Source: Clostridia bacterium
Lineage (GTDB): Bacteria; Bacillota; Sulfobacillia; RBS10-35; JADGHG01
Assembly (NCBI GenBank): GCA_019689585.1
Contig: JADGHG010000004.1
Span: forward strand, 1 to 48,491
Direction of reading: 5' to 3'
Length of the DNA: 48,491 nt
Part shown: in pieces, positions 21,999 through 34,433 of the stretch
How positions within the stretch are numbered: position 1 is the stretch's first letter
How the letters are laid out: each line of letters opens with the position of its first letter
Notes under the pieces: generated by a model
What the model saw: the letters and a program-made list of their open reading frames with translations, nothing else
The model's database searches: none
Told to the model about the DNA's origin: nothing
Program-made: the position numbers and the translations under genes

Positions 21999-22829
21999 GT
22001 GCTCGACTTTCTGGCGGAGCTCGACGTCACCCGCGTCCTCCGCGCCATCGTCGACATCGGCATCATCGCCTACCTCGTCTACCGAGTCCTCATCCTCGTG
22101 CGGGGTACGCGCGCCACCCAGCTCATCCGGGGGCTCGTCGTCATCGTCGTCGCCTACTGGGTCTCGGGCTTCCTCGGCCTCGACGCGCTCCACTGGCTCC
22201 TCGACAAGGTGTGGGTCGGGCTCTTCGTCGCCGTGCCGATCGTCTTCCAGCCGGAGTTGCGGCGCGCCCTCGAGCAGGTGGGGCGCGGCTCGTTCTTCCG
22301 GCCCCTCACGGCGCTCGGCTCGGAGGACGTCGCGCACTTGATCGACGAGGTCGTGCGGGCGACCGAGACGCTTTCGCGCAACAAGACGGGCGCCCTCATG
22401 GTGGTCGAGCGCGAGACGGGGCTCGGCGACATCATCGAGACCGGCATCAAGATCGATGGGCTCGTCACGGCCGAGTTCCTCGTCAACCTCTTCATCCCGA
22501 ACACGCCGCTGCACGACGGCGCCGTCATCATCCGCGGCAACCGCGTGATGGCGGCGGCCACCTTCCTCCCCCTCGCCGAAAGCCACGTCGTGCCCACGGA
22601 GCTCGGCAGCCGCCACCGCGCCGCCGTCGGCATCAGCGAGCACTCCGACGCGGTCGCGATCGTCGTCTCCGAGGAGACGGGCCACGTGGCCGTCGCGCAC
22701 TCGGGGAAGCTCATCCGCGGCCTCGACTCGCAGGACCTGCGGGAGCTGCTCGAGCGCCTCTTGCCGCGCGAGCCGGCCGGGCTCGGCTTCTTCCGCTCCG
22801 GGAGGAACGCCGCCCATGAGGCGCGTTAG
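21999..22829 (+). CDS. cdaA: diadenylate cyclase CdaA
   Basis: TM N-terminus and DAC motifs LHDGAVIIRG and LGSRHRAAVGISE. Confidence 0.97.
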   Translation: MLDFLAELDVTRVLRAIVDIGIIAYLVYRVLILVRGTRATQLIRGLVVIVVAYWVSGFLGLDALHWLLDKVWVGLFVAVPIVFQPELRRALEQVGRGSFFRPLTALGSEDVAHLIDEVVRATETLSRNKTGALMVVERETGLGDIIETGIKIDGLVTAEFLVNLFIPNTPLHDGAVIIRGNRVMAAATFLPLAESHVVPTELGSRHRAAVGISEHSDAVAIVVSEETGHVAVAHSGKLIRGLDSQDLRELLERLLPREPAGLGFFRSGRNAAHEAR

Positions 22830-23760
22830 CGCCTGGCTGCGCGAGGACCTCTGGATCAAGGTCGCCTCGGTCGTCATCGCGGTGCTCCTCTGGGTGAACG
22901 TCGTCGGGCCGCCGCGGAGTTCGCCCCTCGCCCCGGTCCAGGCCACGGCGCAGAACGTGCCGGTCGAGTGGCGGCACCTGCCCGACGGCCTCAGCGTGGC
23001 CCGGCTCGACCCCCCGGTCGTGGCGGTGACCTTCCGCGCGCCGGCCACGATCGCGGACGGACTCGGGCCCGGCAGCTTCGCCGCGTTCGTCGACCTGCGC
23101 GACGCCGAGGCCGGCCGGCTCGCCTTCAACGTCGACGTGGCCGTGCCGGCGCAGGTCCAGCTCGTGAGCGTCGAGCCGCAGCGCGTGACGGTCACCCTCG
23201 CGGCCGTCTCGGCGCGCGAGGTCCCGGTGACGGTCCGCGTCTCGGGCCAGCCGGCCGACGGCTTCCGCGCCGGCGCGGCGCGCGCGACCCCCGAAGCGGT
23301 TGAGGTGTCCGGCCCGACGGCGGCCGTGGCGGCCGTGGCGTCGGTCGTGGCGACGGCCGATGTCGCGGGGCGCGAGGCCGACCTGACGGTCGACGCGCCG
23401 CTTACGGCGGTCGACGCCGACGGCGACCCGGTGGAAGGCGTCGCGCTCGATCCGGCCACGGCGCGCGTCACGGTGCCCGTCGCGGCCTGGGCCGAGAAGG
23501 TCGTCCCGGTCGAGGCCAGCCTCGCGGGCGAGCCGGCGGCCGGGTACCGGGTCGAGCGGGTCGGGGTCGAGCCGGCCGAAGTGCGGCTTTCCGGTCCGAA
23601 GGAGGCGCTCGACGCGATCGCGTCCGTCTACGCGCAGCCGCTCGACGTGGCGGGTCGCGACGCCGACCTCGAGGCGAAGGTCGGGCTCATCCTTCCCGCC
23701 GGGGTGACGAGCGACCCCGCTGAGGTGACCGTCTCGGCCCGGATCGTGAAGGCGCCGTGA
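22816..23760 (+). CDS. cdaR: YbbR-domain protein CdaR
   Basis: N-terminal TM plus YbbR repeats (VEVSGPTAAVAAV, VRLSGPKEALDAI); overlaps cdaA and glmM. Confidence 0.92.
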   Translation: MRRVSAWLREDLWIKVASVVIAVLLWVNVVGPPRSSPLAPVQATAQNVPVEWRHLPDGLSVARLDPPVVAVTFRAPATIADGLGPGSFAAFVDLRDAEAGRLAFNVDVAVPAQVQLVSVEPQRVTVTLAAVSAREVPVTVRVSGQPADGFRAGAARATPEAVEVSGPTAAVAAVASVVATADVAGREADLTVDAPLTAVDADGDPVEGVALDPATARVTVPVAAWAEKVVPVEASLAGEPAAGYRVERVGVEPAEVRLSGPKEALDAIASVYAQPLDVAGRDADLEAKVGLILPAGVTSDPAEVTVSARIVKAP

Positions 23761-25175
23761 AGCTCCGCCTCTTCGGCACGGACGGCGTGCGCGGCCGGGC
23801 CGGCGATGAGCTCACGGCGGAGCTGGCCTTCCGCCTCGGCCGGGCGGCCGCCCGCGTCCTCGGGCCGGGCTCGGGCGCGGAGGGCGGGCGGGTGCTTCTC
23901 GGCCGCGACACGCGCGCCTCGGGCCCGTGGCTCGAGGAGGCGTTGGCGGCCGGCCTCGCCGCCGGCGGGCTCGGCCCGGCGAGCCTCGGCGTCGCGCCGA
24001 CGCCGGCCGTGGCCCACCTCGTCCCCCGGTCCGGCTTCGCGCTGGGCGCCGTCGTCTCGGCCTCGCACAACCCGGCGGAGTACAACGGCATCAAGTTCCT
24101 CGACGGGGCGGGTCGCAAGCTCGCCCAGGCCGTCGAAGCGTCTATCGAGAGGGAGCTCGACGCCCCGGGCGACTGGGGCGAGACCAAGGACGCGGGCGGA
24201 GGCGGGCTCCCTCTCGCCCCCGACCGCTTGCGGGCCGACGCGCTTCTCGAGCTCTACCTCGAGCACCTCGTCGAGGCCGCGGGCGGTCGCTTCGCCGGCG
24301 AGCGGGTCGCGCTCGACTGCGCGAACGGGGCGGCGTTTCGGACGGCGCCCGAGGCCTTCCGGCGAGCGGGGCTCCGCGTCACGTCCCTCCACGACCGTCC
24401 GGACGGCGAGAACATCAACCGGGGGGCCGGGTCGGAGCACCCGGGGGCGCTCGCGGCTCTCGTGCGCGAGGGGCGCTTCGCCTGCGGCTTCGCCTTCGAC
24501 GGCGACGGCGACCGCTGCCTCGCCATCGACGAGCGCGGCGAGATCGTCGACGGCGACGGCCTCCTCGCCGTCCTCGCGCTCGACCTTCACGAACGGGGCC
24601 GCCTGCCCGGTCCGGCCGTCGTCGGGACGGTGATGACGAACCTCGGCCTCGAGCGGTTCCTCGCGCGCCACGGCATCGCCCTCGTCCGGGCGCCGGTCGG
24701 CGACCGCGAGGTGGCGGAGGCGATGGAGGCGGGCGGCTTCCGGCTCGGCGGGGAGCCCTCGGGGCACATCGTCGTCCGCGACTTCGCCGTCACGGGCGAC
24801 GGGGCCCTCACGGCGCTCCGCGTCCTCGACACGCTCCGGCGCAGCGGGCGTACACTGGGCGAGGCGGCGCGCCTCTGGGAGCGCCTGCCGCAGGCGCTCC
24901 GCAACGTGCGCCTGCCGGAGGGCGCGCGGATCGGGGACGACGAGCGCGACGCGCTCGCCGCCCTCCAGGCGAAGGCGGGGCGGGCGCTTTCCGGCCGCGG
25001 CCGGGTCGTCGTCCGGCCGTCGGGCACGGAACCGGTCGTGCGCATCCTCGTCGAAGGGGAGGACGAAGGGGAGGTGAGGGCGCGGGCGGACGAGATCGCG
25101 CAGGACGTCGCCCGGGAGCTCGAACGAAGCGCCAGGGCTCGCGCGGCTCGCGCGAGTCGACGAGGCGGGGACTGA
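23757..25175 (+). CDS. glmM: phosphoglucosamine mutase GlmM
   Basis: LFGTDGVRG, SASHNPAEYNGIKF, DGDGDRCLAID, RPSGTEPVVRI. Confidence 0.97.
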   Translation: MKLRLFGTDGVRGRAGDELTAELAFRLGRAAARVLGPGSGAEGGRVLLGRDTRASGPWLEEALAAGLAAGGLGPASLGVAPTPAVAHLVPRSGFALGAVVSASHNPAEYNGIKFLDGAGRKLAQAVEASIERELDAPGDWGETKDAGGGGLPLAPDRLRADALLELYLEHLVEAAGGRFAGERVALDCANGAAFRTAPEAFRRAGLRVTSLHDRPDGENINRGAGSEHPGALAALVREGRFACGFAFDGDGDRCLAIDERGEIVDGDGLLAVLALDLHERGRLPGPAVVGTVMTNLGLERFLARHGIALVRAPVGDREVAEAMEAGGFRLGGEPSGHIVVRDFAVTGDGALTALRVLDTLRRSGRTLGEAARLWERLPQALRNVRLPEGARIGDDERDALAALQAKAGRALSGRGRVVVRPSGTEPVVRILVEGEDEGEVRARADEIAQDVARELERSARARAARASRRGGD

Positions 25176-25402
25176 TCGAACCGTTCGGCGGATGGTCCCC
25201 CGGCCGGCCACGGTCGTGAGCCCCAAGCCCGAAATCCGGCGAGCGATCGCCGGGACAGGGGCCGGGCAGGTGGCGGCACGGCGCCGTGCCTTCCCGGGTG
25301 GGCGCAGGATGTCCCATCTTCGCCGAGATGGCTGCCGGGGCCCGGGCCCGCCCGCGCCCGGCCGGGCTGGGCCGGCTCGGCGCCGGGGAGAGATGGCGCT
25401 AC
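25176..25402 (+). promoter_or_regulatory. putative structured 5' leader of glmS
   Basis: Hairpin CCGGCGA-gcga-TCGCCGG (25236-25253), long-range GGGACA/TGTCCC (25252-25257/25310-25315), palindrome GGCACGGCGCCGTGCC (25275-25290), hairpin CCATCT-tcgccg-AGATGG (25314-25331). Confidence 0.45.
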
Positions 25403-27421
25403 ATGTGCGGCATCATCGGGTACGTCGGGCCGCGCAGCCCGCTCGACGTGGTCCTTTCGGCCTTGCGCCGGCTCGAGTACCGCGGGTACGACTCGGCCGG
25501 CGTCGGCGTGGTCGCGGACGGGCGCGTGCGGGTCGTCAAGCGCGAGGGCCCGCTCGAGGCGCTCGAGGCCGCCCTCGACGGGCTCTCGTCCGGGGCGGAC
25601 GGGCTCGTGGCGACGGCCATCGGTCACACGCGCTGGGCGACCCACGGCGCCCCGAGCGACCGGAACGCGCACCCGCACACCGACGAGCGCTCGGAAGTGG
25701 CGATCGTCCACAACGGCATCATCGAGAACGAGGGGGAGCTCCGCCGCGAGCTCGAGGGCCGCGGCCACCGGTTCCGCTCCGAGACGGACACCGAGGTCGT
25801 CGCCCACCTCCTCGAGGAGGTCTATCGGCCGGACGGGCCGGCCGGCGGCGACCTGGCCGAGGCGGTGCGCCTCGCCGTCGCCCGGCTCAAGGGCGCCTTC
25901 GCCTTCGTCGTGGCGAGCGCCCGCGAGCCGGGCCGCATCGTCGTCGTGCGCCAGGCGAGCCCGATCGTCATCGGGCTCGGCGAAGGCGAGAACTTCGTGG
26001 CGAGCGACATCCCGGCCCTCATCCCGTACACGCGCCGCGTGATCACCTTGGCCGACGGGGACATGGCCGACGTCCGGGTCGACCGCGTCGCCCTCTCCGA
26101 CCTCCGCGGCCGGCCCGTCGACCGCAGGCCGTTCACGGTGAGCTGGGACCTTGCGCTCGCCGAGCGCGGCGGCTACCCGCACTTCATGCTGAAGGAGATC
26201 CACGAGCAGCCCGACGCCTGGCGGCGCACGCTCGCCGGCCGCGTCGACGGGGAAGGGCGCGTGCGGCTCACGGCGGAAGCCGGCCGGGCCGAGGGGGAGG
26301 CCGCGATCGAGGCGGGCCGCGAGGAGGCGGCGCTCATCTCGGTGACCGGTTCCGGGGAGAAGGAAGCCTTGGCCCGGCTCCTGGCCCGCGAGTTCCGGCG
26401 CGTGGCGATCGTCGCCTGCGGTTCGGCCTACCACGCGGGTCTCGTCGGCAAGGCGCTCGTCGAGCGCTGGGCCAAGCTGCCCGTCGAGGTCGACGTCGCC
26501 TCGGAGTTCCGGTACCGCGAGCCGCTCGTGGGCGAGGACACGCTCGCGATCGCGATCTCGCAGTCGGGCGAGACGATCGACACGCTCGCGGCCCTGCGCG
26601 AGGCGAAGGCGCTGGGCGCCGGGACGCTCGCGATCGTCAACTCGGTCGGCTCGATCATCGCGCGCGAGGCGGACGCCGTGCTCCCGATGCGCGCCGGCCC
26701 CGAGATCTCGGTCTGCTCGACGAAGGCGTACACGACCCCCATCCTCTGCCTCGCGCTCCTCGCGCTCGAGCTCGCGGCCAGGCGGGGGACGATGGACGAG
26801 GAGGCGCGGCTGGCGGTGGGGCGCGAGCTCCTCGCCCTGCCCGACCGCGGCCGGGAGGCGCTCGCGACCGACCGACGCGCGGCCGAGCTCGCGAAGCGGC
26901 TTGCCACGTGCGAGGACGTGTTCTTCATCGGGCGCGGGCTCGACTACGCCGCCGCGATGGAGGCGCAGCTGAAGCTCAAGGAGATCTCGTACATCCACGC
27001 CGAGGCCTACGCGGCCGGCGAGCTGAAGCACGGCACGCTCGCCCTCGTCACGGAGGGCGTGCCGGTCGTGGCGCTGGCCACGCAGCCGGAGCTCATGGAC
27101 AAGGTGACGAGCAACATCCGCGAGGTCGAGGCCCGGGGCGCGTGGGTCATCGCGGTCGCCACCGATCCTCTGCTCCCGGCGGCCGCCGGGCCGGCCGGCG
27201 CGGACGCGGGGGCGGCGCCTTTGAGACGGCGCGCCGAGGGGACGCGCGCGCTCCTTCCCGAGAGCGTCCGGGACGTCCTCGCGATCGCGCCCACGCACCC
27301 GCTTCTCGCGCCGGCCGTCGCCGCCATCCCGCTCCAGCTGCTCGCCTACCACGCGGCCGTGCGCCGGGGGAGCCCCGTCGACAAGCCGCGCAACCTGGCG
27401 AAGAGCGTCACGGTCGAGTGA
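25403..27421 (+). CDS. glmS: glutamine-fructose-6-phosphate aminotransferase (isomerizing)
   Basis: Starts MCGIIGYVG (catalytic Cys2); SIS domains; C-terminus KPRNLAKSVTVE. Confidence 0.98.
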   Translation: MCGIIGYVGPRSPLDVVLSALRRLEYRGYDSAGVGVVADGRVRVVKREGPLEALEAALDGLSSGADGLVATAIGHTRWATHGAPSDRNAHPHTDERSEVAIVHNGIIENEGELRRELEGRGHRFRSETDTEVVAHLLEEVYRPDGPAGGDLAEAVRLAVARLKGAFAFVVASAREPGRIVVVRQASPIVIGLGEGENFVASDIPALIPYTRRVITLADGDMADVRVDRVALSDLRGRPVDRRPFTVSWDLALAERGGYPHFMLKEIHEQPDAWRRTLAGRVDGEGRVRLTAEAGRAEGEAAIEAGREEAALISVTGSGEKEALARLLAREFRRVAIVACGSAYHAGLVGKALVERWAKLPVEVDVASEFRYREPLVGEDTLAIAISQSGETIDTLAALREAKALGAGTLAIVNSVGSIIAREADAVLPMRAGPEISVCSTKAYTTPILCLALLALELAARRGTMDEEARLAVGRELLALPDRGREALATDRRAAELAKRLATCEDVFFIGRGLDYAAAMEAQLKLKEISYIHAEAYAAGELKHGTLALVTEGVPVVALATQPELMDKVTSNIREVEARGAWVIAVATDPLLPAAAGPAGADAGAAPLRRRAEGTRALLPESVRDVLAIAPTHPLLAPAVAAIPLQLLAYHAAVRRGSPVDKPRNLAKSVTVE

Positions 27422-27428
27422 GGCGTCG

Positions 27429-28346
27429 CTAGCGCGGCCGGCGCGCGAGGACGAGGGCGGCGAGGACGGCGAGAAGGCCCGCGAGGGCGAGAAGCCAGGG
27501 GAGCGGCGAACTGCCCGTGGCGCCGGCCGCCCGGCCCTCGTCAGCCGAGGACCCTTCGGGCGGCCGGGAGCCGGGCCCCGCCTCGGATGCGCCCTCCGAC
27601 GGGGGCGGCCCCAGCTCGGCGAAGACGATGGCCCCGCCTTCCGAGCCGGCCTGAAGGTACGAGCGTACGACGGTCCCGCCCTCCCAGAGCGTGAGGTCGG
27701 TCGGGCCGACGACGCGCGCGTGCTCGTAGACCGGGTACGGCCTCCCAGCGAGGACGAGCGTGTAGCTCGCCTCGCCGTCGGGCGTCGTCTCCGTGCGCAC
27801 CTCGGCGACGGGCCCGGTCGGGCCGGGCGCGACGCCGAAGGAGCGGAGCTCGGCGGGGCCGAGGTGGTCCGCGATGACGGCGGCCGCCTGCGCCTTCGTG
27901 ACCGCGCCGCCCGCCTCCTCCGAGAGGCGGAGCCGGCCGTCGAAGATCGCCCGGTCGACGTCGGCGAGCGTCGCGTCCCCCGAGAGGGACGGGAGGTACG
28001 GCCGTCCCGCCGCGACGAGGGCCGCGAGGTCGGGCGCCTCGCCCCCCGGCGCCCGGCGGTGCGCGAGGGCCGCCCAGGCCGCGAGGTCGCGCCGAGTGAG
28101 GCGCGCGTCCGGCTCGAAGACGGGCGTCTCGGGGACGACGCCGAGCGCGACGAGCAGCACGATGTCCCCCGCCTCGGGGGCGGCGCCGATGTCGGGGAAC
28201 TCGGTCTTCTCGTTCGCGATGTGCGCCGAGGCGGAAGGGGCGGGAGGCGCAAGCGAAAGGAGAAGCGCCAGCGCGAAGGCGGCCCGGAGGAGCCGGAACG
28301 AAGCGCGAGAAGACGTCGCGACGACCTGCCGGCGCCGGCGGTACAC
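27429..28346 (-). CDS. secreted, C-terminally TM-anchored protein with SLH-like repeats
   Basis: Signal peptide ending SASA|HIANEKTEF; two SLH-like stretches (FPDIGAAPEAGDIVLLVALGVV..., LADVDRAIFDGRLRL...GAVTKAQAAAVI); C-terminal TM. Confidence 0.65.
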   Translation of the reverse strand: MYRRRRQVVATSSRASFRLLRAAFALALLLSLAPPAPSASAHIANEKTEFPDIGAAPEAGDIVLLVALGVVPETPVFEPDARLTRRDLAAWAALAHRRAPGGEAPDLAALVAAGRPYLPSLSGDATLADVDRAIFDGRLRLSEEAGGAVTKAQAAAVIADHLGPAELRSFGVAPGPTGPVAEVRTETTPDGEASYTLVLAGRPYPVYEHARVVGPTDLTLWEGGTVVRSYLQAGSEGGAIVFAELGPPPSEGASEAGPGSRPPEGSSADEGRAAGATGSSPLPWLLALAGLLAVLAALVLARRPR

Positions 28347-28353
28347 GCGCGCT

Positions 28354-29424
28354 CTACCTCCTCGTGTAGAGCCAGAGGGCCCCGTCGTCCTGCTGGAACT
28401 GGAGGAGGCGCGCGGCCGGGTCGAGCTCCCGCGCCTCGATGCGGAGCATCGTCTCGTCGGCGACGACCTCCTGCATCTGGGGGTCGTCCGGGTCGACGAG
28501 GTAGCCGTCGACGAGCGCGTACTCGACGCGGTAGCGGACGGCCGTCGGCCCCGCGCGCACGAACTGCCCGACGAGGATGACCTGGCGCCGGCCGAGCGGA
28601 ACCGAGAAGGTTCCGACGACGTAGACGTGATCCGCCCGCAGGAGGATCTCGAGGTCGGAGACGCCCTCGATCGGCGACCCTCCCGGGCCGGCGAGGGCGG
28701 GCTCGCCGACGAGCCGCTGGAAGGCCGCCTCGTCGAGCCGGAAGCGGCCGGCCGCGACCGGCGTCACGGCGCCTTCGAGCCCCGGCGAACCGGAGATGCG
28801 GCGCTCCGCGAAGCGGACGTACGCGGCCAGGGGGCCGGCGCGGATCTCCTCCCAGCTCTCCGAGATGCCGTAGAGCGCGAGCTCCTGCTCCTGCGGCGAG
28901 CGGCCCGCGATCGCCTCGCGGTGGCGCCTTTCGGCCTCGACGAACGCCGCGACCAGGTCGCGGTAGCCCCGAAGCTCGCGCTCCTTGGCCTCGAGCTTGG
29001 CGAGCTCCGCCTCGGCCGCGCGGAGGGACTCGAGGTCGCGGCCGACGACCTCCCGCACCATCTGGAGGTTCGCCAGCGCGTCGACGGGGCCTCCGCCGCC
29101 GAAGACGGCCGCGAGGAACGCCTCGCCCGCGTACTGGCCGTAGAAGAGGACGCGCCGGCGCGCCTCGGGCAGCATGGCCTCGTACCTCGCCCGGGCGGCG
29201 TCGACCTGGGGGGCGAGCTCGGCGATGCGCCGGTCCGTCTCGTCGAGCTGGGCCTTCAGGATGTCGAGGCTCGACTGGCCCGCCTGGCCCTGGACGTCCT
29301 TGAGGAAGTAGAGGAACACGCCCGTGATGTGCGCCCCGGCCGAGCCGCCGGGGACGAGCGCGGCAGCGAGCACGGCGAGGGCGAGGGCGAACGCGGCCGG
29401 CCGCACTGCCAGAGGGCGCCTCAC
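28354..29424 (-). CDS. secreted coiled-coil protein, PcsB/CwlO-type coiled coil without a recognised hydrolase domain
   Basis: GTG overlaps ftsX stop; signal peptide ending SAGA|HITG; coiled coil with RVLFYGQYAGEAFLAAVFGGGGPVDALANLQMVREVVGRDLESL. Confidence 0.75.
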   Translation of the reverse strand: MRRPLAVRPAAFALALAVLAAALVPGGSAGAHITGVFLYFLKDVQGQAGQSSLDILKAQLDETDRRIAELAPQVDAARARYEAMLPEARRRVLFYGQYAGEAFLAAVFGGGGPVDALANLQMVREVVGRDLESLRAAEAELAKLEAKERELRGYRDLVAAFVEAERRHREAIAGRSPQEQELALYGISESWEEIRAGPLAAYVRFAERRISGSPGLEGAVTPVAAGRFRLDEAAFQRLVGEPALAGPGGSPIEGVSDLEILLRADHVYVVGTFSVPLGRRQVILVGQFVRAGPTAVRYRVEYALVDGYLVDPDDPQMQEVVADETMLRIEARELDPAARLLQFQQDDGALWLYTRR

Positions 29425-30344
29425 CGGAAGACCCCCTCCCGCCGGGCGAGAAGCGCCAGGGCGAGGGACGCTCCGGCTGCGCCGAGGGCCGTGCCCGAGG
29501 CGAGGCAGAGGACGACGAGCGGCCCGAAGCGGGGTGGGGCGAGCGGCCAGGGGAGGAGGGTGGCGAGGGCGAGCTCGACGCGATGGACGACGAGGACGAG
29601 GCCCATCGCCGCAAGCGCCCCTCCGGCCAGGCCGAGGAGCGCCCCCTCGGCCGCGAACTGGCCGGCGAGCGCCCAGGGCGATACGCCCATCCAGGCCTTC
29701 ACGCGCACTTCGGCAAGGCGCGAGAGCACGGCGAGCTGCCAGGTGACGACCGTCACCGCCAAGCCGAGGAGCGCGAAGCCGACGACCGACGCGAGGCCTG
29801 CCCGGCGCAGGAAGTCGGCCAGGCCGAGGACGGCCGGCAGGTACTTCTGGCCGTAGACGACCTCGTCCACCTCGGGCCAGCGCGCGATCCGGGCGGCCAG
29901 CGCCCCCGCCTCGTCCGGGCCGGTGAGGAAGACGGCCACGCTCGGCGGGAAGGGGTTCTCGGGGAAGAGGCGGCCGAGGTCGACCGTCCCCCCGAACGCC
30001 TCCTCGAGGGCGGCGAGCGTCTCCTCCGGCGGGACGACGCGCGCCGAGGCGACCCCGGGTAGCGCCCGGATGCGCCGGGCGACGGCCTCGGCGCGGCCGG
30101 CGGGCGACGTCGCCTCCGACGGCTCCGTCAGGACGACCCGCATGGCCGCCTGCTCGCGCAGGAGCCGGGCGGCCGACCGCGTCGCATCCGAGCCGAGGAA
30201 GACGAGGGCGGCGAGGGATACGGCGAACGCTGCGACGAGGACGGCCGAGACCGCGGCGACGAGGTTCCGGCCCGCGCCTAGGCGGGCGTCGCGCAGCGCG
30301 TAGTAGAGGGGCCACAGGTTGGGACGGCCGAGGGGGCGCCTCAC
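29421..30344 (-). CDS. ftsX: cell-division-type permease FtsX
   Basis: NPFPPSVAVFLTGPDEAGALAARIARWPEVDEVVYGQ extracellular-loop signature, 4 TMs, adjacent to ftsE. Confidence 0.88.
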   Translation of the reverse strand: MRRPLGRPNLWPLYYALRDARLGAGRNLVAAVSAVLVAAFAVSLAALVFLGSDATRSAARLLREQAAMRVVLTEPSEATSPAGRAEAVARRIRALPGVASARVVPPEETLAALEEAFGGTVDLGRLFPENPFPPSVAVFLTGPDEAGALAARIARWPEVDEVVYGQKYLPAVLGLADFLRRAGLASVVGFALLGLAVTVVTWQLAVLSRLAEVRVKAWMGVSPWALAGQFAAEGALLGLAGGALAAMGLVLVVHRVELALATLLPWPLAPPRFGPLVVLCLASGTALGAAGASLALALLARREGVFR

Positions 30345-31082: not shown

Positions 31083-31490
31083 TCACCCGCCTCCGCCTGC
31101 GAGTTCCCGCCTGGCCGCCGTGAGGAGCGCGGGGAGCGCCTCGGCCGCGGCGGCCGCCTCGTCCCACGATCCGCGCAGGAACCCGAGCTCGACGACGGCC
31201 ATCTCGTGCCACAGGCGGCCGGCCAGCTCGGGGTCGCGCTCGGCGAGCCGCGGGTAGACCTTGTGGATGACCGGGTCGACCTCGCGCCAGAGCGACCGGG
31301 CCTCCCCGTAGTCCCCCGCCCGGATGAGCGACGCGACGCGCCCGGCCCCGTCGACGGCCGTCCGCCAGTCGCGCTCCGACACGCCGCCGCAGGCGGCCGC
31401 CGCGAGCGCAAGACAGGCCAAGGCCAGCGCGACCCAGGCCCGCCCCGGCCGCCGGCGGGGCGCCGGGCCGCCTCCATCCGCTGGCGGCAT
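31083..31490 (-). CDS. small helical lipoprotein
   Basis: Lipobox LALAAAAC|GG; ATG overlaps SCO1 stop (ATGA). Confidence 0.65.
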   Translation of the reverse strand: MPPADGGGPAPRRRPGRAWVALALACLALAAAACGGVSERDWRTAVDGAGRVASLIRAGDYGEARSLWREVDPVIHKVYPRLAERDPELAGRLWHEMAVVELGFLRGSWDEAAAAAEALPALLTAARRELAGGGG

Positions 31491-32140
31491 CAGCCGCCCA
31501 ACTCCGCCACGCGGCGGATCTGGCGGAGGATCGTCCCCGGGTCGGCGTCCGACTCGATGTAGAGCCGTTCGCGGCCGGCCGGGTCGATGAGGAAGAAACC
31601 GGTGTCGTGCTCGCCGTTCACGCCGTACCGGCCGACGAGCTCCTCGACGACGGCGACGTGGTAGGCGTCCCACACGGGCTTGAGCTCGGCCTCGGTCCCC
31701 GTGAGGAAGTCCCAGGCGCGGGGGGCGACGTTGCCCGGCTGGGAGGCGATGAAGGCCGGCCGCCCGACGGCGTCGAGCCAAGGGTCGACGGAGACGGCGA
31801 CGAAGGCCACGCGCGCCGCGTCCCGGCCGAGCCGCGCCTCGAGCTCGGCCATCGTTCGGAGCGTCTCGGGGCACACGTCCTTGCAGTGGCCGTCGAGGAA
31901 CGTGAGGAGGACGGCGCGGCCGCGGTAGTCGGCGAGGGTGACGCGCTCGCCCTCTTGGTTCGTGAGGGCGAAGTCGGGCGCAGGCACGCCCCCGAGGTCG
32001 GTCCCTTCGTAGGCGTAGGCGCCGCCGGCGCCGCCCTGCCAGGTGAGGAGGGCGAAGGCGGCCAACGCCGCCCAGGCGGCGCGCCGGAGCCAGCCGAGCG
32101 CGCGCGAGGCTGAGCTCCGCGGGGCCGCCGAGCCTCTCAC
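31490..32140 (-). CDS. SCO1/SenC-family copper chaperone / thioredoxin-like protein
   Basis: N-terminal signal; PDFALTNQEGERVTLADYRGRAVLLTFLDGHCKDVCPET with CxxxC; C-terminal DTGFFLIDP. Confidence 0.9.
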   Translation of the reverse strand: MRGSAAPRSSASRALGWLRRAAWAALAAFALLTWQGGAGGAYAYEGTDLGGVPAPDFALTNQEGERVTLADYRGRAVLLTFLDGHCKDVCPETLRTMAELEARLGRDAARVAFVAVSVDPWLDAVGRPAFIASQPGNVAPRAWDFLTGTEAELKPVWDAYHVAVVEELVGRYGVNGEHDTGFFLIDPAGRERLYIESDADPGTILRQIRRVAELGG

Positions 32141-33138
32141 GGCCGCCTGCGCCCCCCGCCGCCCTCGGCGAGCGCGCGGGCGGCCGCGTGCGCGCGCTCC
32201 TCGAGCACGAGCGAGGCGTCCGCCTCGTCGCCGAGAAAGCGCGGGCCGCGCGCGTCGGCGTCCGTGCGGCAGAAGGCCCAGAACGCCTCGAGGAAGGCGA
32301 AGAGGAAGGCGGCGCCACCGAGGAGCTTCATCACGATCCCGCCCATCTGCTGGTCCTCGAGCGGCGTGAGCGCCATGATGCGCGGCGCGTGCGCGTACCA
32401 GTCGTAGACGACGGCGTTCGAGAAGGTGACGCCGGCGAAGACGGGCGTCATGCCGAGACCGTCGACGAACACGTACACCATCCGCGCCGGGGGCGAGAGG
32501 CGCGGCAGCTCGGGAAGCGGCGAGACGACGGGCCACCACGTGAACATCGCCGTGACGAGGAGGGCGGCGTGCTCGAGCGCGTGCAGGGCCGGGTCGGCGA
32601 GGGCGGCCTGGTAGAGCGACGGGATGTGGTAGGCGCTGAAGACGCCGTTGAAGACGAGGATGGCCGCGACCGGGTGGGTGAAGAGCGCGAGCGCGCGCCA
32701 GGCGAGGGCGCCGGCGAGCGAGCGTGCCACGGACGGGCGGCTTTGGGCGGAGCCGCCGGCTGGCCTCCCGCCCTGCACGAGCTCGCGGAGCGGCCGGCCG
32801 ACCCACCGCGGCAGCGGCGGGAAGCGGCCGGAGAGCCCGAGGAGGAGGAGCGGCGCCGCGACGAACGCGATCAGCATGTGCTGGAACATGTGGACCCAGA
32901 AGAGGAAGAGCTCGCCGATCTCGTCGATCGGCGATTCCAGCGCCAAAAGCAGGGTGAGGAGGCCGAGCGCGAACCAGACGGGACGGCCGAGGGCGCGCGG
33001 GTCGCGGCCCCACGACGCGGCCCGCCGGTCGGAGAAGCGCACGAGGGACGCGTAGCCGACGGCGAGGAGGAGCACGATCGCCCAGACGGCCGGGTGGAAC
33101 GAGAAGGCGAGCCAGATCTCGCGGGGCGCGCCGACCAC
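32137..33138 (-). CDS. ctaG: cytochrome c oxidase assembly factor CtaG (caa3-type)
   Basis: HMFQHMLIAFVAAPLLLLG, HALEHAALLVTAMFTWWPVV, DQQMGGIVMKL. Confidence 0.92.
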   Translation of the reverse strand: MVGAPREIWLAFSFHPAVWAIVLLLAVGYASLVRFSDRRAASWGRDPRALGRPVWFALGLLTLLLALESPIDEIGELFLFWVHMFQHMLIAFVAAPLLLLGLSGRFPPLPRWVGRPLRELVQGGRPAGGSAQSRPSVARSLAGALAWRALALFTHPVAAILVFNGVFSAYHIPSLYQAALADPALHALEHAALLVTAMFTWWPVVSPLPELPRLSPPARMVYVFVDGLGMTPVFAGVTFSNAVVYDWYAHAPRIMALTPLEDQQMGGIVMKLLGGAAFLFAFLEAFWAFCRTDADARGPRFLGDEADASLVLEERAHAAARALAEGGGGRRRP

Positions 33139-33174: not shown

Positions 33175-33696
33175 CTACCCGACGCGCGCGCCGCGGGAGG
33201 CCGGGGCGACGGCCGGCTCGTCCCCGCCGGGCTCTTCGGCGGGCGAAGCCCGATCGGCCTCGGCCTTGGGCCAGAGCAGCGCGCCGGCCGCGGCGAGCGC
33301 GAGGAAGAGGACGTCGCGGACGACGTCCCACGGGCCGACCGGCTCGGCGCCCCCGAAGCAGCCGCAGCCCGAGACGCCTCGCCCCGTGGCGAGCGCCCAG
33401 CTCATGAGGGCCGTGAAGGCGACGAAGCCGGCGGCCGCGAGCCAGAGGAGGAGCGGCACCCGGCGGGGGGTCCAGATCCAGGCGAGGAGCAGCGCGAGGG
33501 CGAGCGCCGTCTCCCCGGCCGGAACGGCGAGCCCGAGCGCGGCCACGGCCCCGGGCCCGAAGCCGTAGCCCGAGAGGGCGAGCGCGAAGCCGGCCGGGTC
33601 GACCCACTTCGTCCAGGCCGAGTACCCATAGACGGCGGCCGTCGCGAGAAGGAGAAGCGCCGCAAGCGGGCGGCGCAGCCCGGCCCGGCCGCTCAC
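33175..33696 (-). CDS. MauE/DoxX-like membrane protein
   Basis: YSAWTKWVDPAGFALALSGYG, ALATGRGVSGCGCFGG; paired with a thioredoxin-like gene. Confidence 0.75.
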   Translation of the reverse strand: MSGRAGLRRPLAALLLLATAAVYGYSAWTKWVDPAGFALALSGYGFGPGAVAALGLAVPAGETALALALLLAWIWTPRRVPLLLWLAAAGFVAFTALMSWALATGRGVSGCGCFGGAEPVGPWDVVRDVLFLALAAAGALLWPKAEADRASPAEEPGGDEPAVAPASRGARVG

Positions 33697-34358
33697 CGGC
33701 TGCCTCCGAAGGACGAGAGGAACCAGCTACGGAAGTCGTCCGGCTCGACGACCCCGCCTCGCGCGGCCACGACGCGGCCCGCGCCGTCGATGAGCACGAC
33801 GGTCGGGTACCCGGTGAAGTGGAACCGGTCGGCTACGCGCCGGTCGGGGTCCGAGAGGAACGTCACCTGGGCCATGGCCGGGTACGCCTCGACGTAGCGG
33901 CGCATCTCCGCCTGGTAGGCCGCCTGGGCGTCGCCGGTGGGAAGCGCCATCGAGCCGTCCTGACCGCTCCCCGGCTGCCCCTTCTCCCCGGGCGTGCCGA
34001 TGCCGAGCCGGTCGGTGGCGTTGATGGCGACGATGCGACCGCCCTGAGAGGCGACGAAGGGCGCGATCTCGGGCAGGTCGTAGGCGGCGAAGTACGCGCA
34101 GTACGGGCACCAGGTGGCCATGATCTCGACGACGAGCGGGTGGCCGTCGGCGGCGATCGTCACCGGTCGGCCGTCCTGGTCCGGGAGCGTGAAGGGCAGG
34201 GCGCTCGCACCCCCGCCCCGGAGCGACGGGTCGCGGACGGCGAGGACGACGACGAGCCCGACGAGCGCGAGGCCGAGGACGGCGAGCGTGAGGCCGACGC
34301 GGCGTCGCCGACGGCGCTCGCTTGCGAGGGACTCCGGGCGTCGGCGCGTCTTGGCCAT
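33693..34358 (-). CDS. TlpA/ResA-like membrane-anchored thioredoxin
   Basis: LPDQDGRPVTIAADGHPLVVEIMATWCPYCAYF, FTGYPTVVLIDGAGRVV. Confidence 0.9.
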   Translation of the reverse strand: MAKTRRRPESLASERRRRRRVGLTLAVLGLALVGLVVVLAVRDPSLRGGGASALPFTLPDQDGRPVTIAADGHPLVVEIMATWCPYCAYFAAYDLPEIAPFVASQGGRIVAINATDRLGIGTPGEKGQPGSGQDGSMALPTGDAQAAYQAEMRRYVEAYPAMAQVTFLSDPDRRVADRFHFTGYPTVVLIDGAGRVVAARGGVVEPDDFRSWFLSSFGGSR

Positions 34359-34369
34359 CGCCACGGGTA

Positions 34370-34385
34370 TCGAACCACGGTTCGA
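34370..34385. promoter_or_regulatory. inverted repeat TCGAACC-ac-GGTTCGA upstream of the TlpA-like gene
   Basis: 7-bp perfect arms, 2-nt spacer, in the intergenic gap. Confidence 0.4.
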
Positions 34386-34433
34386 CCGGCGCGGCAACCG
34401 GCCGGCGCGGCCGGCGAAGGCGGGAGCGGCCCG

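Follow-up and report, generated by a model that had tools for sequence, protein, structure and literature searches.

Two exported proteins predicted to begin with histidine are encoded beside a second FtsEX-type gene pair in a Clostridia bacterium

Introduction

Two neighboring genes of a Clostridia bacterium encode exported proteins, here called P0001 and P0002, that are each predicted to begin with histidine once the signal peptide is removed. They follow the genes of an FtsEX-type ABC system and lie close to those of SCO1 and CtaG. The locus raises the question of what the pair does: does it handle copper, as a preliminary description had proposed, or does it serve the FtsEX-type system? 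The known role of FtsEX-type complexes is to regulate peptidoglycan hydrolases. We addressed this question in the 48,491-nt stretch of DNA that carries the genes (contig JADGHG010000004.1, hereafter the window) and in related genomes.

Results

Two adjacent genes with a predicted N-terminal histidine

Both open reading frames are present as the preliminary description had them. The features of the locus are:

27429..28346, minus strand: P0002, exported SLH-like protein of 305 aa (open reading frame)
28194..28223, minus strand: predicted mature N-terminus of P0002, HIANEKTEFP; HI.NEK..F.DI is invariant in three orthologues
28354..29424, minus strand: P0001, exported coiled-coil protein of 356 aa (open reading frame)
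29293..29331, minus strand: predicted mature N-terminal patch of P0001, HITGVFLYFLKDV, unchanged in five orthologues
29421..30341, minus strand: FtsX-type permease (FtsX_ECD PF18075, 1e-10), the second FtsX of the genome
30341..31072, minus strand: FtsE-type ATPase (TIGR02673, 5e-60, below its cut-off)
31083..31490, minus strand: small lipoprotein with a lipobox-like AAAC; H, W, M, and E conserved over five relatives
31490..32137, minus strand: SCO1/SenC copper chaperone (1.3e-23)
32137..33138, minus strand: CtaG, assembly factor of caa3 oxidase (2e-52); the genome has two copies
33175..33696, minus strand: MauE-family membrane protein
33693..34397, minus strand: TlpA/Redoxin-like thioredoxin

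P0001 starts with a GTG that overlaps the ftsX stop codon (GTGA). By the (-3,-1) rule it is predicted to be cut at PGGSAGA/HITGVF (the slash marks the cut), giving a signal peptide of residues 1-31 and a mature N-terminus at His32. An N-terminal extension of ~20 residues separates this site from a PcsB-type coiled coil (about residues 51-180), and a C-terminal beta domain (about residues 225-356, from a low-confidence model) holds an invariant ADH motif (H266). P0002 also starts with GTG, 7 nt past the P0001 stop codon and with AGGAGG upstream, and its predicted site, APSASA/HIANEK, ends a signal peptide of residues 1-41 and places His42 at the mature N-terminus. An SLH-like stretch follows at about residues 50-89, then a low-confidence beta region and a C-terminal transmembrane helix.

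The rule-based scan covered ten sequences including those of the window, seven P0001-type and three P0002-type, and agreed with an AXA-type site before His in both proteins. This site was found in 10/10 sequences, and no other rule-compatible site ahead of the mature region was shared by all of them. An alternative, GSA/GA, is permitted in the P0001 of the window and occurs in no orthologue in the scan. We infer that cleavage after AXA would leave an N-terminal His in both P0001 and P0002.

The histidine is conserved in every relative found

Six genomes carry the P0001 family: that of the window, G001, G003, G005, and G007 of the same order, and G144, which belongs to another order and has two P0001-type genes. 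P0002 was found in three of these (the window, G007, and G144), each time directly downstream of P0001. The contigs of G001, G003, and G005 (L019, L020, L021) stop at or just past P0001, shortly after the gene in G001 and G005 and inside it in G003, whose P0001 is truncated, and the region for P0002 lies outside these contigs. The contig end of G005 translates as a repetitive stretch, GEWTTWQGEWTT, perhaps an assembly-breaking repeat. A wider contig search with P0001 gave one match only, with the same content as G005:C13 (the G005 contig matches JADBKN010000020.1).

The preliminary description had named, beforehand, a histidine that varies among orthologues as a finding that would count against it. 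Instead, His at position +1 was kept in 7/7 P0001-type and 3/3 P0002-type sequences, from two orders and at identities down to 29%. The P0001 orthologues vary around it (ADA/HITG, ASA/HITG, AAA/HVTG, and AAA/HLAG) and every one has AXA/His. Residues A31-V44 (A/HITGVFLYFLKDV) form a run of 14 consecutive invariant residues across five proteins, the other four of which are 38-58% identical to the P0001 of the window. In the more distant copies of G144, which have AAA/HVTGVFLHFLKDM and AAA/HLAGSYRAFLDNP, the His, Gly, Phe, and Leu are retained. Thus, overall identity to the window P0001 ranges from 29 to 58% whereas the N-terminus is near-invariant. The second invariant His of P0001, that of ADH, is present in 6/6 full-length P0001-type sequences. 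In P0002, the orthologues begin AWA/HILNEKTQFPDI (G007) and AAA/HILNEKSQFADI (G144), both with HILNEK, and two internal His are invariant.

Beyond these relatives, a weak N-terminal match in G209 is an SLH-type protein with Asn instead of His at +1 and was taken as chance. In G144, the genome with the complete module, contig C17 (L078, 4750-7369) carries a further ftsE-ftsX-P0001-type triplet, with AAA/HLAGSYRAFLDN; it has no P0002, and downstream of it lies a gene resembling methionine aminopeptidase.

We compared these N-termini with those behind the AXA signal peptides of the window genome and of two related ones, 31 in all, a small sample drawn with a crude signal-peptide caller. Three of the 31 begin with His, namely P0001, P0002, and one CopC (Pfam 4e-22), which leaves 1/29 among the others. 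By eye, His followed the signal peptide in none of some 30 other PcsB-type proteins (FtsX neighbors for the most part) and in no SLH protein of those listed. In the window genome, the canonical PcsB/M23 protein has its predicted site at AAS/S or nearby, without His. Together these comparisons confirmed the predicted His start of P0001 and P0002. That both proteins have retained the residue in two orders makes a function for His1 most likely.

The genes belong to a second FtsEX-type locus

The genes form a minus-strand chain in the order TlpA-like, MauE, CtaG, SCO1, lipoprotein, FtsE, FtsX, P0001, and P0002, convergent with glmS. Most junctions from CtaG to P0001 overlap by a few bases (GTGA, TGATG), and because the genes of the chain mostly overlap or are near-adjacent, the sequence suggests that it is one operon from the TlpA-like gene to P0002. 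The gene chain shared with SCO1 and CtaG supports the common operon claimed in the preliminary description. On the other side of the convergence, positions 21999-27421 of the window encode CdaA/DisA_N-like, YbbR-like, GlmM, and GlmS proteins (by eye), an order usual for Bacillota. A search of the window genome for CopD (PF05425) found no copy.

The FtsE and FtsX also match ABC_tran (8e-35) and TIGR00439 (2e-26). Because their scores stay below the NCBIfam equivalog cut-offs, we regard them as divergent FtsEX-type members. The window genome has two FtsX genes; the other, on C57, is followed by a gene for a PcsB coiled-coil/M23 protein and then by one resembling a CtpA-type protease (by eye), which is the usual arrangement. 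Since this canonical FtsX-PcsB/M23 locus exists elsewhere in the genome, the ftsEX operon of the window should encode an additional complex. FtsX is also doubled in G003, G005, and G007, and in G001 the copy of the module was the only one found.

The set of lipoprotein, FtsE, FtsX, P0001, and P0002 recurs in G007 and G144. The small lipoprotein had no family match; it is either a lipoprotein or a helical protein anchored in the membrane, and H...P and W..M...E are conserved in it (window 31083-31490, L019 3193-3549, L077 4110-4580). Second FtsX copies in G016, G037, G041, G049, and G057 (L034-L038) were rejected as orthologues, as their coiled-coil partner, where readable, is encoded upstream of ftsE; these loci showed no His start, and no SCO1 or CtaG was recognized nearby. 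The second FtsEX of G041 and G057 adjoins a very large protein (about 1460 aa) that carries VGLDMGTFA.KG close to the N-terminus and may be of the CoA-dehydratase activase type.

P0001 resembles PcsB without the hydrolase domain

P0001 matched no Pfam or NCBIfam family, including PF24568 CC_PcsB (no match at E <= 1), and no M23, CHAP, or NlpC domain was detected in it. Its profile aligned by hhalign with that of 16 PcsB-type proteins with 98.5% probability (E 2e-15) over 130 columns. The aligned segment is the part that Pfam calls CC_PcsB in the PcsB-type proteins, and the alignment stops before the M23 domain. Aside from true orthologues, the P0001 profile found coiled-coil proteins phylum-wide, almost only at model positions of about 40-230; FtsX adjoins 28/32 of the loci checked, a few of them duplicates. 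The homology of the P0001 coiled coil to PcsB-type FtsEX partners is thus well supported at the level of profiles. As P0001 lacks an M23, CHAP, or NlpC domain and the PcsB alignment ends before M23, we classify it as a variant partner and not as a hydrolase.

In the AlphaFold model of P0001, a beta region comes after a long helical hairpin, at a mean pLDDT of 59.5 and mostly <60 in the C-terminal domain, so that the beta domain that appears to replace the hydrolase domain is a low-confidence prediction. The N-terminal patch is modeled, also with low confidence, as a short helix ahead of the coiled coil. The alignments behind the models were shallow (two sequences for P0001, one for P0002) and too weak for placing His1 relative to ADH. 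A Foldseek search with the P0001 model listed PcsB, FtsEX-EnvC, and SteB-RipA near the top, none of them passing E 0.01. Sequence searches of the PDB with the three family profiles gave nothing credible; the lipoprotein profile had one low E-value, to a designed repeat protein in which no stretch passed.

P0002 scored below the cut-off against Pfam SLH (E 0.065). Its three-member profile matched proteins with SLH-like N-termini, in a stretch covering signal peptide and SLH region, at E 3e-8 to 1e-3. Because the fold model is poor (mean pLDDT 45), anything said of domains past the SLH-like stretch is tentative.

Discussion

A probable specialized FtsEX-type complex

Gene order and the conservation of the His are well supported. 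In our judgment, P0001 and P0002 are probably extracytoplasmic subunits of a second, specialized FtsEX-type complex. In such a complex, FtsE would hydrolyze ATP and FtsX would relay the movement to the coiled-coil hairpin of P0001, whose tip, a PcsB-like FYxxYAG...VDxLANL segment, should bind the extracellular domain of FtsX. P0001 would then act on something through its C-terminal domain; because a beta domain seems to replace the peptidoglycan hydrolase domain, its expected role is that of an adaptor without catalysis of its own, like EnvC. The small lipoprotein and P0002 probably assist as co-factors that tether the complex to the envelope. As a single chemical role for His1, chelation of a metal, probably copper, through the free amino group and the imidazole would be the likeliest.

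What the conserved histidine might do

The conserved N-termini may instead be contact motifs with no metal role, a reading to which we give serious though somewhat less than even weight. Here FtsX, the membrane, or the C-terminal beta domain would be the surface that HITGVFLYFLKDV packs on, and HI.NEK..F.DI would reflect SLH-like packing. Consistent with this, the invariant block of P0001 is hydrophobic, runs far past the His, and falls in the modeled short helix, while the conservation of P0002 extends into the SLH-like F.DI. However, the His stays where its neighbors vary (I/V/L, T/A, V/S), in both proteins and always at +1, and simple packing would not lead one to expect the same feature in two unrelated proteins encoded by one operon.

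The preliminary description had called the two proteins possible copper-handling partners. In its fullest form this means that mature P0001 and P0002 bind Cu with the N-terminal His, in a His brace or mono-His brace, and exchange it with SCO1/CtaG for cytochrome oxidase, with the FtsEX-type ATPase driving loading or release; it overlaps the complex that we favor, with copper as the purpose of the module, and we consider it unlikely. What held of the earlier proposal is the conserved His and the linkage to SCO1/CtaG. The order CtaG-SCO1-lipoprotein-FtsE-FtsX-P0001 occurs in the window genome (G000), G001 (where the lipoprotein frame is assumed), G003, and G005, from three families of one order, and because this synteny recurs a copper link is plausible. 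The sole other AXA/His protein of the background sample is a CopC, and further candidate ligands are available: the ADH of P0001, the two internal His of P0002, and the invariant His/Trp/Met/Glu of the lipoprotein. An N-terminal His chelates metal whatever the fold, and the His1 anglerases bind Cu (PMC12537917).

What did not hold is copper handling as the best label, since it omitted the immediate neighbors ftsE and ftsX, and P0001 is by profile a PcsB/EnvC-type partner and P0002 is SLH-like. Neither protein matched a known Cu-protein family, including the Pfam domains of CopC and YcnI. No His, Met, or Cys is conserved in FtsX, its extracellular domain included, and position 1 of P0001 opens a conserved hydrophobic segment that may be kept for other reasons. 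In G144 the gene order is glyoxalase-like, FtsE, FtsX, P0001, P0002, and lipoprotein homologue; SCO1 is elsewhere in the genome and CtaG had no match there. Because this module stands apart from SCO1/CtaG, we take lipoprotein-FtsE-FtsX-P0001-P0002 as the core module and the copper genes as an order-level addition. In G007, whose contig begins at the lipoprotein gene, neither SCO1 nor CtaG had a match, possibly because of an assembly gap. On this evidence, copper binding by P0001 and P0002 is possible, physiological binding of a metal, probably copper, by their His1 is a tentative prospect that we rather doubt, and a dedicated copper function of the whole FtsEX module seems improbable. We likewise give low probability to an ATP-driven FtsEX-type complex for copper delivery or sensing on the outer side of the membrane, in which the two His1 subunits and the lipoprotein would form copper sites feeding SCO1/CtaG and the output of FtsEX would be metal and not a cell-wall hydrolase.

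A further reading takes the conservation as shared ancestry alone and the adjacency to SCO1/CtaG as inherited without function, in an ordinary regulator of a cell-wall hydrolase. It would fit the few genomes of one class and a linkage confined to one order, but we consider it unlikely given the contrast between overall identity and the near-invariant P0001 N-terminus and given that neither the His nor the N-terminal extension is seen in PcsB-type proteins, among them the canonical one of the window genome.

Comparison with known systems

We regard P0001 and P0002 as a real, conserved pair of exported proteins, judged by sequence, that is unnamed in the libraries searched. The locus brings together a second FtsEX copy, a partner lacking a hydrolase domain, two exported partners with His1, and linkage, within one order, to genes for copper-site assembly; our literature search found no paper naming FtsX, FtsE, CtaG, and copper together. 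If His1 binds copper, mechanotransmission ABC machines would be linked to metal handling; if it does not, the locus still defines a non-hydrolase FtsEX partner and two unnamed protein families.

Like the FtsEX-PcsB, -CwlO, -EnvC, and -RipC systems, the favored complex has an FtsE ATPase, an FtsX with an extracellular domain, and an exported coiled-coil partner encoded beside ftsX. Unlike in those systems, the partner lacks M23, CHAP, and NlpC domains and has another C-terminal domain and an N-terminal His patch, the system is a second copy beside a canonical one, genes for an SLH-like protein and a lipoprotein are linked to it, and SCO1/CtaG are neighbors in one order. In function, P0002 and the lipoprotein would parallel SweC and SweD of Bacillus subtilis, small membrane co-factors of FtsEX-CwlO, a complex working outside the divisome (PMC6705773). 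SweC and SweD have N-terminal transmembrane segments and cytoplasmic domains (PMC6705773), whereas in P0002 the SLH-like region is predicted to be exported and the anchor lies at the C-terminus.

CopC, YcnI, and other N-terminal-His copper proteins share with P0001 and P0002 the AXA signal peptide and a conserved His immediately after it, but P0001 is a coiled coil with a domain of no assigned family and P0002 is SLH-like. New Cu proteins have recently been found by searching for a conserved N-terminal His (PMC12537917). Among them, the anglerases Ang-1 and Ang-2 are membrane-linked, carry a conserved His1 after signal peptide cleavage, and bind Cu; they tie a His1 domain to a membrane transport protein and are a precedent for His1-Cu binding without a shared fold (PMC12537917). 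They are fused to HupE/UreJ-2 permeases, and the solved Ang-1 is an immunoglobulin-like beta-sandwich (PMC12537917), whereas the partner of P0001 and P0002 would be an FtsEX-type ABC protein and their His precedes a coiled coil or an SLH-like domain.
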